A stretch of 64,000 nt of DNA, taken from assembly GCF_028716865.1 (NCBI RefSeq), contig NZ_JAQUOY010000012.1, positions 1-64,000 on the forward strand. Direction: 5' to 3'. Shown here piece after piece: positions 36,856 through 46,121 of this stretch. The stretch's first letter is position 1, and each line of letters opens with the position of its first letter. Source of the stretch: Candidatus Methylomirabilis sp. GTDB taxonomy: Bacteria; Methylomirabilota; Methylomirabilia; Methylomirabilales; Methylomirabilaceae. Position numbers and translations under genes: made by a program. The notes under the pieces are model-generated. The model ran no database searches and had not been told where the DNA came from. It saw only the letters and a list, made by a program, of their open reading frames with translations.

Positions 36856-37791
36856 CTATGGAGAGCCAAACAGGTCGCCGGGTTTGACACGATACCCACT
36901 GGCAAACTCCGCTGCGGTCATGACACGACGGTTTTCCGGTTGCACCTGAGACAGCCACAGACCCCCCTGCCCGGCGGCGACCAGCACCCCCTTCGCGCGA
37001 TCGATCGCACATACGGTGCCTGCAGGAGTGCCCGTTGCCATTTCTACTTCGGCTTGTAGCAGTTTGACGCGGCGTCCCCCGAAGCTGGTCACGGCTCCGG
37101 GCGCTGGACACAGGCCACGAATCAAGCAGTCGAGCGCTCGCGCATCGCGGGTCCAGTCGAGATGCGTCTCGTCCACGGTGAGCTTCGGCGCATAGGTCGC
37201 CAACCGCTCGTCCTGCGGGGTCGGGTGGACTGTCTTGCGTGCCACCTGATCGAGAGCCTGGCACAACAGCTCGGCCCCAATGACGGCCAGGCGCTCGCCC
37301 AGCGTGCCGGTGGTATCCCGAGGCCCGATCGGCTCTGGCTGCCGCATGAGGATCGGGCCGGCATCCATCCGCGCCTCGATCTGCATAATCGTGACCCCTG
37401 TGACGGCCTCGCCGTGGATGATGGCCCATGAGATCGGCGACGCGCCGCGGTACTTCGGCAGGAGCGAGGCGTGAAGGTTCAGGCAGCCTTGTGGTGGGAG
37501 GGTGAGGATCGGTTTCGGCAGAAGCTGACCATAGGCGACAACGACAATAGTCTCCGGTTGGGCTGCCTGCAGTGCCGATATGACCGCCGGCTCGCCGACC
37601 TTTTCCGGCTGCAGGACTGGAAGCTCATGCTCCTGGGCGGCGAGTTTCACCGGCGGCGACGTAGGTACGCGGCCGCGTCCGGCCGGCCGGTCCGGTTGGG
37701 TTACGACCATGCAGATGTCGTGACCTGCAGCCATGAGCGCTTTGAGCGAGGGTAGAGCGAACGTGGGGGTGCCCATGAAGCTCACGCGCAT
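36856..37791 (-). CDS. fmt: Methionyl-tRNA formyltransferase
   Basis: A 311-residue enzyme that formylates initiator Met-tRNA using 10-formyltetrahydrofolate. Motifs present: MRVSFMGTPTFALPSL at the N-terminus, catalytic NLHASLLPKYRGASPI and GVTIMQIEARMDAGPI, then the C-terminal OB-fold. ATG 37791 lies within the last codons of the Mut7-C gene, with AGGGA about 8 nt upstream; a much longer frame upstream is not real. It was followed ancestrally by rsmB, now replaced here by a truncated copy because of the island insertion. Confidence 0.95.
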   Translation of the reverse strand: MRVSFMGTPTFALPSLKALMAAGHDICMVVTQPDRPAGRGRVPTSPPVKLAAQEHELPVLQPEKVGEPAVISALQAAQPETIVVVAYGQLLPKPILTLPPQGCLNLHASLLPKYRGASPISWAIIHGEAVTGVTIMQIEARMDAGPILMRQPEPIGPRDTTGTLGERLAVIGAELLCQALDQVARKTVHPTPQDERLATYAPKLTVDETHLDWTRDARALDCLIRGLCPAPGAVTSFGGRRVKLLQAEVEMATGTPAGTVCAIDRAKGVLVAAGQGGLWLSQVQPENRRVMTAAEFASGYRVKPGDLFGSP

Positions 37792-38255
37792 AGGCCGTTC
37801 CCTTTTTTCATAGCTGCCACGCGATCGAGCGTCTCTACCATCCGGGCGTAATGCGTCCCCTCCCAGTAGATCCGAAGACAGCCGGGGCAGCGGGCGAACC
37901 GCTCCTGGGTCTGCCAGACGAATACGGGGATCTCGGCGCGTACCTCGGTTTTGTCGACCGCCTCCAGAGGGAGGTTGCATCGCAGGCACAAACGGCCGAT
38001 GATCCGGGGCGGCAACCCAAAGCGAGCCACAACCTGAGCAAGCTGCGCATCGTAGTGATCGCTCTCAATAAAGCAGGTCAGATGGGCCGGCAGGCGAGGC
38101 GGCAAGTGGGTGTCCCGGGTAAGCAGCAGCCGGTTCTCCGCCAGGACTAGCCGCACCAATCTGGCATCGTCGCCTCGCCAATACAGTGTGTCGTAGCCCA
38201 ACAGACGGAGCCACTTGGCCAACCGACCGAGCATCGCATCGGCCACAAACCGCAT
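37782..38255 (-). CDS. Mut7-C RNase-domain protein
   Basis: A 157-residue protein. The N-terminal half is a PIN-like Mut7-C domain (ADAMLGRLAKWLRLLGYD, then LLLTRD with acidic residues), and the C-terminal half is a zinc ribbon (CLRC and CPGC pairs). Such proteins are predicted RNases. ATG 38255 starts exactly at the conserved MRFVADAMLG. The stop overlaps the fmt start by 10 bp, so the two are coupled. Copies of its 5' region occur at 29607-29655 and 40278-40403. Confidence 0.85.
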   Translation of the reverse strand: MRFVADAMLGRLAKWLRLLGYDTLYWRGDDARLVRLVLAENRLLLTRDTHLPPRLPAHLTCFIESDHYDAQLAQVVARFGLPPRIIGRLCLRCNLPLEAVDKTEVRAEIPVFVWQTQERFARCPGCLRIYWEGTHYARMVETLDRVAAMKKGNGLCA

Positions 38256-38699
38256 CCTATTCCGTCCCTTTCGGCTTCTCCGTGTCCTTGGTGCATCTCT
38301 ACCTATGCGCATCCTCACGCGCAGACGGCTGCGGCACATCGCCTACGTGTCACTATAACACACGAACGGGATTTCGGTATGGGTAGAGCAGGGGCTGGGC
38401 CTAAACGGGCTTCCGACAGCATCAGGCCTGATTGCCATGACCGGTCATGCCTGACTGGTACCCAAGCGCATAGAGTAGCTGGTGTTTTCGGAATCAAATT
38501 GTCAAGCTTTCAATCGCAAGCGCCGATACACATTACAGACCGCAAGGGAGCCCCTCGCCCACTGAAAGTACAGCCCTTACAAGGCTGGAATGTAACGCCG
38601 GGGATCACTTATCGAGACCTGCAGCCGGGCCCATAAAGGAGGAACGACACCAATGCTCTTGGAACATGAGGAGTTGCCGCCAATGGAAGGGGGATGCTG

Positions 38700-39383: not shown

Positions 39384-39807
39384 ACCGAAGAGACATAGCT
39401 GTAAGGCTTCAATCCTGACCCCGGTCTTGATCTAGGCGGTCCGGCACTCCGAGACCCCAAGGACCATGGTTGCCTCCGCCATCGTCGACTCCCTGCGAAA
39501 CACGCGTTCGATCACGGCGAGTCGTTAACGCTCTTTTGGCGTCAAGGCTATAGTGTGCACAGCCTGACATTATCACACGGCCATTAGTCTCTGACAGAGC
39601 CATCTTGCTCGCATCGCCGCCAACACAGCCATCAAAAAGGCTTGACCGTTTCCCAAGGTTGGAGTACGGATCGTCGCTGAATCCGAATATTGGCGAGCTT
39701 CGACTCTCGCGGGTCAAGTCATGGCAGCCCACGTTCCTCGCGCATCTCCAACGCGTACTCCCAAGCGTTGCTAACTGCAATGCAGCGACTGCGATGGAGG
39801 TTCATGT

Positions 39808-40290
39808 ATGAGATTCACTGCAATAGCCGGGATTAGGGCAAACCTCAATGGGCTTTCCCCTTAGTGGCGACATTCGCTCGTTATGACGTTGATTGTTGGG
39901 TTGACTGTCTTGGTTTGGCTGGCGGTGCGTACGTATCAGTTCGCGCCGCAGATTCCGGACAGGGTAATTGGTCCGGGTGGCGCGATCATCCTCACAGCCG
40001 ACGACATTCGAGCCGGACAGGAAGTGTTCTTGAAGTAAGGCCTGATGGAAAACGGTTCCGTCTGGGGACATGGGGCGTATCTGGGACCCGATTTTTCAGC
40101 GGAGTATTTGCACGCATTGGCGGTCGCGGCAGGGCCGGCGTTGAAGCAGAACCGCTATGACCCGCGTACCAGGACGTTAACATTCACGGATGCGGAGGCG
40201 GCGACGTTCGAGAGCCAGGTGGCAAGGTGGACGGCGTACTTTGCGGAGCCGACTGGGAGCATCGGGTTGCCGGCCAAGTACATCACCGAC
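39808..40290 (+). pseudogene. Decayed 5' part of a qNOR/NO-dismutase-like gene
   Basis: From ATG 39808 (GGAGG upstream) one frame reads NLNGLSP-stop-WRHSLV, then LTVLVWLAVRTYQFAPQIPD, VFLK-stop-GLMENGSVWGHGAYLG, PDFSAEYLH and GLPAKYITDP. These are the N-terminal TM helix and periplasmic region of quinol-dependent NO reductases and of the related NO dismutase. Two nonsense codons (TAG 39862-39864 where W is expected, TAA 40036-40038 where Y is expected) and loss of everything after about residue 160, including the catalytic haem domain, make it nonfunctional. I see nothing in 39384-39807. Confidence 0.85.
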
Positions 40291-40403
40291 CCAACATCGC
40301 ATCGGCTACAAACCGCATCGTTGTTCTATCCCTCTCTGGTCCTCTGCGTCCTTGTCACACAAAAGATGTGCCGCGTGCCTGTGACTATAGCACACGAACA
40401 GAT
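40278..40403 (-). pseudogene. Remnant of Mut7-C 5' end and upstream region
   Basis: CATCGCATCGGCTACAAACC and the stretch to TATAGCACACGAACAGA match 38225-38370 (CATCGCATCGGCCACAAACC ... TATAACACACGAACGGGA), i.e. the first codons and upstream region of the Mut7-C gene, with small deletions. The qNOR-like fragment ends exactly where this match begins. No gene is evident in 40404-40717. Confidence 0.75.
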
Positions 40404-40717
40404 CGCCCTTGACCGTAAATGCCCCAGCCGGTAAGCGCCATAGCCTCTGTCATTCGTTTGCCACGTCCTTGTTCATGACGAGCCACAGACGTGGGAAGAA
40501 TCGGTCGGCCCTAACAGCAATAGGCTGAACAGCGTTTGTTGGCAACGGCGATATGTGGAAGCTCTTGACAAGTCCTTAGAACGGCTGGAGAATCGCGGCA
40601 ATCGTTGCAGTTTTATGGACGTAATAGGCCGAGTTGCCTAATATTGATAAGCCTGACTAGGCTAATCAACAGTTGGGCCGATATGGAACAGTTTTTATTT
40701 CATAGGAAACTTCGTTA

Positions 40718-42180: not shown

Positions 42181-42270
42181 GCGGACGGTCATCCACGCGA
42201 GCACGCTCGCGCCTCTGCCAGGTGCTGATCGGACGCCCCGTTGAGTAGAACAATCGACGAGGAGGAACGA

Positions 42271-43416
42271 ATGTCTGGTAAAACGACCGGACCCGAGAGT
42301 AAGAATGCGCTCCGTGCCTATCTTCAGCGCGCAGAGGTCAGGCTCTCCACGATGCACCGTATCGCGGGGGCGTTCCTCGGCGGTGCGGGCCTGCTGTTAC
42401 TTCTACCGACATTCCTTCGAGATGCGCCCGTTCAGGTATTCGGCGTCATCAATAAAGCCGTTCCCATGCTGTCGACGCAGTGGAACCTCCCGCCTCTTCT
42501 TATCGGCGTCGCATTGAGTCTTCCTGTAGTGATCGCCTACACGATCCCTGTCTATGCGCTCTGGCTCTTGCTTCAAGATTTGACGCTGTTCTACTTCAGC
42601 GTCAATACCCCCAGAAATGTATCTGTTGGGAAAACTGATAAGCCGGTATTCCATCCCAGGTTTTCGCTGACGGCGATACCCTTTAGTGATGATGAACCCT
42701 CGGATATCAAGAAACAGCTTCGCGCGATCCAGTTCGGATCCTCACTGAAGCACTCCGTCCTCCCTCACGTACAGAAAGACAAACATTGGTTCAAAGCGCT
42801 TGTAGAAAAGGAAAAGGAAGAAGAGGAGGAGGAGAGGCAGGTAGCGCTTCCTGATGATTCGTGGTTGGAGGAGTGTCCGACAGATGACGAAGACGACCGA
42901 TCTGCCTTGTGTGTGGCGTTTGGTCTTGCCGGGGCATACAACCATGACTTGGTTGCGGAGGTGGCAAAAACCGAACTTTCACTGATTCGTCACAATCTGA
43001 ACCTCAAACGCCTCGTCCTGCGGTACATGAAGGCGCTGCTCACGCTTGTCTGGACCACACTCCTGTCCTTTATGGTTCTCGCCGGGATCAATGATATCAT
43101 GCCTGAGAAGGATCTCATTGTGGTCGTACTCGGGTTTCTGGCGTGGGCTATTATCACGCCGTGGATCGTCAGGGCGCCCACCAGGTGGGTCTATCGTGGG
43201 CACAGTCAGCATGCGACCGGCGCCATTAACGATCGGTACCTGGCCCGGTTCGAGAGGCTCGTCATTGCCGGTTGCTTTCTCGCCGCACTTCTCACGTCCG
43301 GTATTGCCGGATTCTTTGTGGGATGGACCTTTATTTGGCTTGGTCCAGTGGGTCCTGGTCTGGCGCTTGCGCGAAGCTTCGGCTGGCTTAAGCACGATCT
43401 GTTGAAGTGGCTGTGA
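42271..43416 (+). CDS. Unrecognised multi-spanning membrane protein
   Basis: A 381-residue protein with hydrophobic segments near 30-50, 75-110, 260-285, 288-305 and 340-370, so four or five membrane spans. Between the second and third lies a 140-residue cytoplasmic-type loop with a run of acidic residues (KEKEEEEEERQ, PTDDEDDRS). ATG 42271 has GAGGAGG at the right distance; an in-frame earlier start at 42241 lacks one. No family is recognised and no conserved neighbour explains it. Confidence 0.62.
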   Translation: MSGKTTGPESKNALRAYLQRAEVRLSTMHRIAGAFLGGAGLLLLLPTFLRDAPVQVFGVINKAVPMLSTQWNLPPLLIGVALSLPVVIAYTIPVYALWLLLQDLTLFYFSVNTPRNVSVGKTDKPVFHPRFSLTAIPFSDDEPSDIKKQLRAIQFGSSLKHSVLPHVQKDKHWFKALVEKEKEEEEEERQVALPDDSWLEECPTDDEDDRSALCVAFGLAGAYNHDLVAEVAKTELSLIRHNLNLKRLVLRYMKALLTLVWTTLLSFMVLAGINDIMPEKDLIVVVLGFLAWAIITPWIVRAPTRWVYRGHSQHATGAINDRYLARFERLVIAGCFLAALLTSGIAGFFVGWTFIWLGPVGPGLALARSFGWLKHDLLKWL

Positions 43417-44880: not shown

Positions 44881-45035
44881 TCGTTTTGGTGGAAGAGTTG
44901 CAGGATGATCTTGCGGCTACTCCTGAAGCGGTACCAGTTCATCATTGGCAAAAAGAAGAGCCGGCTCGCAGAAAGGCCAACCTGAGTCGGTATAGCCGCT
45001 GAGTTCATTATCGCATTTATGTGTGGAGGAGCTCT

Positions 45036-45560
45036 ATGGAAGAGACCGAAGAGACGGAAGAGAAGCAAGAGAAAAAGCATACAAAGTGGGTGAAGAGTGT
45101 CATGGGTCTCGTAGCTCTTGGGGAAGCGGCTGTGATTTTCATTGGTCTTCAGTTCATCCCCTACGGCCGAGGATATAATAATCCTCCGGTGAAGGCTGAG
45201 CCCAAGTGGGACAGCCCCAAAACGAGAGAGCTGTTTTTCCGCGCCTGCGGTACTTGTCACAGCAACGAAGTCGCCTGGCCATGGTATGGCTATATTGCGC
45301 CCGTGTCATGGTTCATTCAACACGACATCGACAAGGGTCGCGCCGCCCTCAATGTGTCGGAATGGGGACGTGCAGAGGGTAATAGTGGCGATTCCGCAGA
45401 AACCGTCCAAAATGGCTCAATGCCACCTTCGACATATGGAATCTTGCACCCGTCAGTCCGACTGGCTACTCCGGAAAAGCAGGCGTTTATTCAGGGGCTG
45501 GTGGCCACCTTCGGCAGTAAGGATGAGAGCAAGCATAAAGATAAACAGGATGATAAGTGA
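45036..45560 (+). CDS. Haem-binding (cytochrome c-like) membrane-anchored protein
   Basis: A 174-residue protein of the haem_bd family. After a charged N-terminus and a TM anchor (about 24-44), the haem-attachment motif CGTCHSNE is followed by WPWYGYIAPVSWFIQHDI and SEWGR, the conserved family pattern, and by MPP as a candidate axial methionine. It is expected on the periplasmic face, carrying electrons or sensing redox state. ATG 45036 has GGAGGAG 5 nt upstream. It follows the Cache protein by 155 bp and precedes the MOSC gene by 21 bp. Confidence 0.87.
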   Translation: MEETEETEEKQEKKHTKWVKSVMGLVALGEAAVIFIGLQFIPYGRGYNNPPVKAEPKWDSPKTRELFFRACGTCHSNEVAWPWYGYIAPVSWFIQHDIDKGRAALNVSEWGRAEGNSGDSAETVQNGSMPPSTYGILHPSVRLATPEKQAFIQGLVATFGSKDESKHKDKQDDK

Positions 45561-45581
45561 GCCAATGCGGCGGGGCGACCG

Positions 45582-46121
45582 ATGAGCGAAGTGGTGGCGG
45601 TCTGCTGTAGTCCCACGCACTCGTTCGGTAAGCCGCCACTGGCCGCCATTCGCCTGCTTGCGGGCCTCGGCGTGGAAGGTGACGCGCACCTTGGGCGAAC
45701 GATCAAGCACCGCTCGCGGGTGGCGGTCGACCCGACCCAGCCGAACCTGCGGCAGGTCCATCTGATCCACACCGAACTGTACGACGAACTGCGGGCTGCC
45801 GGGTTCGACGTATCTCCCGGTCAGATGGGCGAGAACGTCACCACCCGCGGCGTCGACCTACTCGCCCTGCCGGTCGGCACTCAGCTTCGACTCGGCCGGG
45901 AGGCAGTCGTTGAGGTGACCGGGTTGCGCAATCCGTGCGCCCAGCTTGACGCCTTCCGACGGGGACTGATGGCGGCGGTGCTGGACCGGGACGAGTCCGG
46001 TCGGCTGGTCCGCAAGGCGGGCATCATGGGGGTGGTGCGAACGGGTGGGGTGGTACGGCCGGGAGACGTGGTGGGGGTCGAGCTGCCTCCCCCACCTCAT
46101 CGTCCGTTAGGCCTGGTGTAG
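45582..46121 (+). CDS. MOSC-domain protein
   Basis: A 179-residue protein with the MOSC fold: GVEGDAHLGR near residue 31, QVHLIHTELYDEL, GQMGENVTTRG and the conserved Cys motif GLRNPCAQLD. MOSC proteins handle molybdenum-cofactor sulfur or act as small sulfur-carrying enzymes such as YiiM-like reductases. The MsrP molybdoenzyme is encoded 7 kb away, but no direct link is visible. The 73-bp gap to the acyl-CoA dehydrogenase is empty. Confidence 0.88.
   Translation: MSEVVAVCCSPTHSFGKPPLAAIRLLAGLGVEGDAHLGRTIKHRSRVAVDPTQPNLRQVHLIHTELYDELRAAGFDVSPGQMGENVTTRGVDLLALPVGTQLRLGREAVVEVTGLRNPCAQLDAFRRGLMAAVLDRDESGRLVRKAGIMGVVRTGGVVRPGDVVGVELPPPPHRPLGLV

Follow-up and report, generated by a model that had tools for sequence, protein, structure and literature searches.

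A probable relic of canonical qNOR at the usual qNOR site of the genus in a Candidatus Methylomirabilis genome

The window, a stretch of 64,000 nucleotides from a Candidatus Methylomirabilis genome (G000; congeners carry the other G numbers), contains a sequence homologous to the qNOR (norZ) gene, and this homology is limited to the first 461 nt of the gene (Table 1). When the full qNOR was run against the whole window with tblastn, we obtained one real match, at 39832-40317. Aligned with intact qNOR genes from the genus (12 in all), the fragment shows where its start and its two nonsense codons lie, and it can be followed as far as position 40292 without any insertion or deletion. Beyond codon 153 the sequence turns into unrelated DNA, which is the 5′ region of a gene with a Mut7-C domain. 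The sequence-only reading had described a frame from 39808 with TAG and TAA codons and no catalytic domain, and the frame indeed reads so. The gene itself, however, does not start there: the ATG at 39808 falls within the end of the neighboring insertion-sequence remnant and shares the frame only by chance, while the true start codon, at 39832, has become ATT. Since this start is also lost and unrelated DNA follows codon 153, sequencing errors in an intact gene, which that reading had named as a possible refutation, do not account for the stops. The landmarks of the locus are listed in the same table, where "MOSC-type" is the name that we presume for the gene at the right.

Table 1. Positions in the window of the qNOR fragment, its lesions and joints, and the neighboring landmarks
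Feature	Position	Strand	Remarks
fmt (methionyl-tRNA formyltransferase)	36856..37836	-	left landmark
Intact Mut7-C RNase-domain gene	37782..38255	-	landmark on the left side of the usual qNOR locus
First copy of Mut7-C 5′ region	38222..38371		attached to the intact Mut7-C gene
ISNCY-family element remnant (transposase 5′ end)	39417..39598	-	also occurs on contig C17
Decayed IS1380-family element, right end	39697..39830	+	transposase C-terminus, 63% (amino acids) over 35 residues against the intact G004 copy
qNOR (norZ) pseudogene fragment, codons 1-153	39832..40292	+	comprises only transmembrane helix 1 and the beginning of the periplasmic, cytochrome-c-like domain
Lost start codon of qNOR fragment	39832..39834	+	ATT; ATG in 12/12 intact homologues
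Nonsense codon TAG at W11	39862..39864	+	Trp in all 12 intact qNOR genes
Nonsense codon TAA at Y69	40036..40038	+	Tyr in all 12 intact qNOR genes
Fusion point ACCGACCCAAC, 11-bp repeat	40285..40295		common to qNOR and Mut7-C 5′ end
Second copy of Mut7-C 5′ end and upstream region	40285..40413		homology to G010 continues to 40668
Conserved membrane protein	42268..43416	+	directly before qNOR in G005, G007 and G014; no qNOR sequence after it here
MOSC-type gene	45582..46121	+	landmark on the right side of the usual qNOR locus

To which subfamily the fragment belongs can be read from its intact paralogues in the same genome, a check that the earlier reading had proposed. A DNA comparison within the whole genome returned a single related qNOR place, on contig C48 (4157-4596, 440 nt, 87% identity, ungapped, E ~1e-153), which makes up the 5′ portion of an intact gene of 730 codons, and no match to either of two intact, tandem NO dismutase (NOD) genes on contig C9. 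At the protein level the fragment shares 84% of all its 153 residues with the C48 protein and 28-29% with the two NODs. The C48 protein carries the qNOR signatures GHHWYW and MEVVPL, and the C9 pair has the NOD signatures SHNFYW and MQVLPL; the changes His>Asn and Glu>Gln are the marks of NODs (PMC3413370). From signatures and identity together it follows that C48 encodes a qNOR and C9 the two NODs, and that the fragment is part of a qNOR. Consistent with this, its N-terminal sequence is of the qNOR type, GQEVFLK(stop)GLMENGSVWGHGAYLGPDFSAEYLH, where the NODs have GKQVFHLKGLM.YGSFWGDG.ERGPD. All heme and Fe ligands, the histidine sextet and the catalytic glutamates lie beyond the end of the fragment, and the region of the His>Asn (FeB site) and Glu>Gln (near the catalytic center) marks is missing from it. 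An origin from a NOD gene could appeal to the N-terminal fold common to both families and to the weak protein similarity, but given the identity to qNOR, the missing DNA match and the presence in congeners of qNOR, not NOD, between the Mut7-C and MOSC-type genes, we give it practically no credence; identity and synteny rule it out. Judged by its sequence, the fragment is a remnant of canonical qNOR, neither a qNOR itself nor a NO dismutase. Thus, of the label "decayed qNOR/NO-dismutase-like gene" the first part stands and the second does not, and the claim that one family member has been lost fails, as the 730-aa qNOR and both NODs are kept. The inferred origin from an NC10 methane oxidizer is borne out by a Methylomirabilis genome in which a pmoA/amoA-type gene (PF02461) lies on C9 with the two NOD genes. 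On the wider distribution of these genes, we observed that G006, of the same genus and 94% complete, yielded no hit to qNOR or NOD at E 1e-5, in contrast to the remaining genomes of the genus with a completeness of 90% or more; it may be a member that lacks this NO chemistry.

Both ends of the fragment coincide with joints, as the sequence-only reading had supposed. On the left, the remnant of an IS1380-family element ends 1-2 bp ahead of the qNOR start codon. G004 holds at least five places with the same type of element end, at which different DNA follows the same terminal ...GCAATATTCCGG, and the complete G004 element encodes a transposase whose score on the IS1380 model, 236 bits, exceeds the cut-off of 180 bits. 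The window retains the C-terminus of this transposase together with the same element end, which places the left neighbor in the IS1380 family. On the right, qNOR passes within the 11-bp repeat into a second copy of the Mut7-C 5′ end (first codons, on the reverse strand) and its upstream region; the two copies of this region in the window differ by 20%. The repeat is the longest word common to the Mut7-C 5′ stretch and the qNOR stretch. Among the genomes examined, only G003 and G013 have it at both places, in the same direction and 813 bp and 1015 bp apart, respectively. Recombination between such direct repeats would have produced the truncated copy, since a tandem duplication or a deletion between them would give exactly this fusion; insertion sequences may then have entered beside the truncated copy, to be followed by point mutations. 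The order of these events is not fixed. G013 also has a second, partial Mut7-C copy (residues ~97-154) just past the 3′ end of its qNOR (G013:C15, 8002-8194), which is a further sign that duplications recur around Mut7-C and qNOR. A block of ~120 bp to the right of the fusion point (40556-40680) recurs in the genus, both in this genome (G000:C14:52221-52344, 86%) and in G001, G003, G004, G007, G010 and G014. Its core of ~32 bp, TTGACA...GAGAAT, is more widely dispersed; the block had no Rfam match and is possibly a shared promoter block or a small repeat.

The genome is in 53 contigs, and the join was judged solely from the assembly, so one might suspect that the end of a qNOR contig was wrongly joined to the end of a Mut7-C contig and that the stops are errors. 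The fragment, though, differs by 13% from the single other qNOR of the assembly and is therefore not a misplaced piece of that gene, it bears three separate lesions, and the flanking insertion elements are decayed too; we regard such a chimera as very unlikely. Carriage of the segment on a plasmid was also considered and rejected, the only qNOR-like match of this kind being one of 68 nt on a Methylosinus plasmid.

The position of the fragment is that of qNOR in the genus. In 10 congeners a full-length qNOR is linked to Mut7-C, to the MOSC-type gene or to both. Particularly, G001, G005, G010, G013 and G014 share the order fmt, Mut7-C, variable genes, qNOR and MOSC-type gene (in G013 the last was matched only as a piece); fmt and Mut7-C are on the same contig as qNOR in G004, G008 and G012, as is Mut7-C in G003, and G007 has the conserved membrane-protein gene, then qNOR, then the MOSC-type gene. 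The window possesses the landmarks of this locus, but between them qNOR is represented by the 461-nt fragment alone, and in G009 we could detect no qNOR in the interval between Mut7-C and the MOSC-type gene. Taken together, we consider it very likely that the fragment is a relic of canonical qNOR, no longer functional, at the usual qNOR site of the genus. The position where qNOR would be expected in the window is occupied by glyoxalase-like and Cache-domain genes, and the haem-binding-domain gene and the MOSC-type gene (45021-46121) stand in the opposite order to that in G007, G009 and G014.

The intact qNOR lies elsewhere. Both in this genome and in G009 it is found at tal-pgi, with a small gene on its other side that on C48 stands before tolQ, and the interval from tal-pgi to tolQ is without qNOR in five congeners (G001, G005, G007, G012 and G014, although in G005 and G012 it has other differences besides). 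Because the site is empty in these five, we conclude that the genome kept its qNOR by relocation, and a single move, in the ancestor that this genome shares with G009, is the simplest reading. DNA homology between C48 and the copies at the Mut7-C locus comprises the gene, ~20-40 nt upstream and at most ~25 nt downstream (C48 4097-6351 at most). The neighboring gene varies as well: tal-pgi is one fused frame in C48, its match in G004:C36:64109-66967 and in G001:C225:9084-11942 contains a stop codon, and in G009:C16:84764-87627 it is split into two frames, so that transaldolase and glucose-6-phosphate isomerase undergo fusion and splitting inside one genus.

To place the fragment, we added its 461 columns to a tree of full qNOR genes. 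The C48 gene pairs with that of G009 (100/99) and G001 joins the pair (100/99), while the partner of the fragment is G003 (72/95). Grouping the fragment with C48 was rejected (AU test, p=0.001), as were a group of C48, G009 and the fragment (p=0.004) and one of the fragment with G005, G010, G014 and G007 (p=0.009). The fragment is thus no copy of the qNOR that now lies at tal-pgi, and the p=0.001 result rules out both a recent duplicate of C48 and a direct relic of the moved gene. Its nearest kin is G003, which is not the nearest species by fmt, and the tree does not demand a native relic. It is quite possible, if somewhat short of an even chance, that the fragment arrived from another Methylomirabilis species, by recombination of DNA with the compact layout of G003 and G013 (Mut7-C, short spacer, qNOR) into the 5′ region of Mut7-C, and that it never belonged to the qNOR lineage of this genome. 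In addition to the tree, the two genomes that alone carry the fusion word at both places point in this direction, and so does the difference between the two Mut7-C 5′ copies of the window, which is as large as that between species. Against it, over 461 columns the pairing with G003 is not strongly supported, a group of the window's nearest species plus the fragment was not rejected (p=0.085), and the left one of the two Mut7-C copies clusters with the species group to which the window belongs. The fragment is accordingly either an older separate copy or derived from a G003-like species, and 461 columns cannot decide between the two; a foreign source would oppose only the native origin of the relic, not its being a dead piece of qNOR. 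A bolder proposal, which we think rather unlikely, is that the interval between Mut7-C and the MOSC-type gene is a spot of qNOR replacement between Methylomirabilis species, where the native qNOR left for tal-pgi in an ancestor common to this genome and G009, and the emptied place was afterwards taken by a foreign, G003-like qNOR that decayed.

Nonsynonymous and synonymous changes on the branch of the fragment (17:9) are as expected without selection (p=0.52), and on the C48 branch they number 5:9 (p=0.006). The test is weak, since the counts are small and even the branch of G003, whose gene is intact, does not clearly depart from the neutral expectation (p=0.24); the codon-position counts give no date for the loss. 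An open reading frame of 129 aa starts at the ATG at 40045, inside the fragment, and continues into the Mut7-C upstream sequence; it has no membrane anchor or helix and none of the ligands. The sole promoter-like site upstream on the forward strand (39525-39554) is a bare consensus match, and no structured RNA was found in the area of the fragment. We expect no function for the fragment and predict that it yields no NO-reducing enzyme: NO reduction, if any, would come from the C48 gene, and NO dismutation is ascribed, likewise as a prediction, to the two intact C9 genes.

These results remove a possible false lead: the NO dismutases have here been neither lost nor altered. They also indicate that the qNOR of Methylomirabilis can change its chromosomal place and yet be kept; for this reason, annotation by locus could wrongly score qNOR as lost, or count a remnant as an additional NOR or NOD gene. 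A literature search, judged by title and abstract, brought up nothing relevant on previously described qNOR pseudogenes of Methylomirabilis. Compared with bacterial pseudogenes that are bounded by insertion-sequence ends, the fragment is an ordinary pseudogene, with an element end beside the gene, truncation and nonsense codons, and nothing sets it apart except that its right joint is a microhomology fusion and not an element end. With the NO dismutases DAMO_2434 and DAMO_2437 it has in common the heme-copper oxidase superfamily and the N-terminal fold, but not the level of identity, which was measured against the NODs of its own genome. The closest comparison is with the qNOR of G005, the only full-length one in that genome, which we take, on this ground and not by annotation, to be DAMO_1889 of Ca. 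Methylomirabilis oxyfera; the fragment has 80% DNA identity to it over 461 nt. DAMO_1889 is the canonical qNOR of that species (PMC3413370, PMC6094997). Unlike DAMO_1889, the fragment is cut after codon 153, has lost its start and contains two stops, yet it belongs to the same gene family and lies at the orthologous locus, from Mut7-C to the MOSC-type gene.
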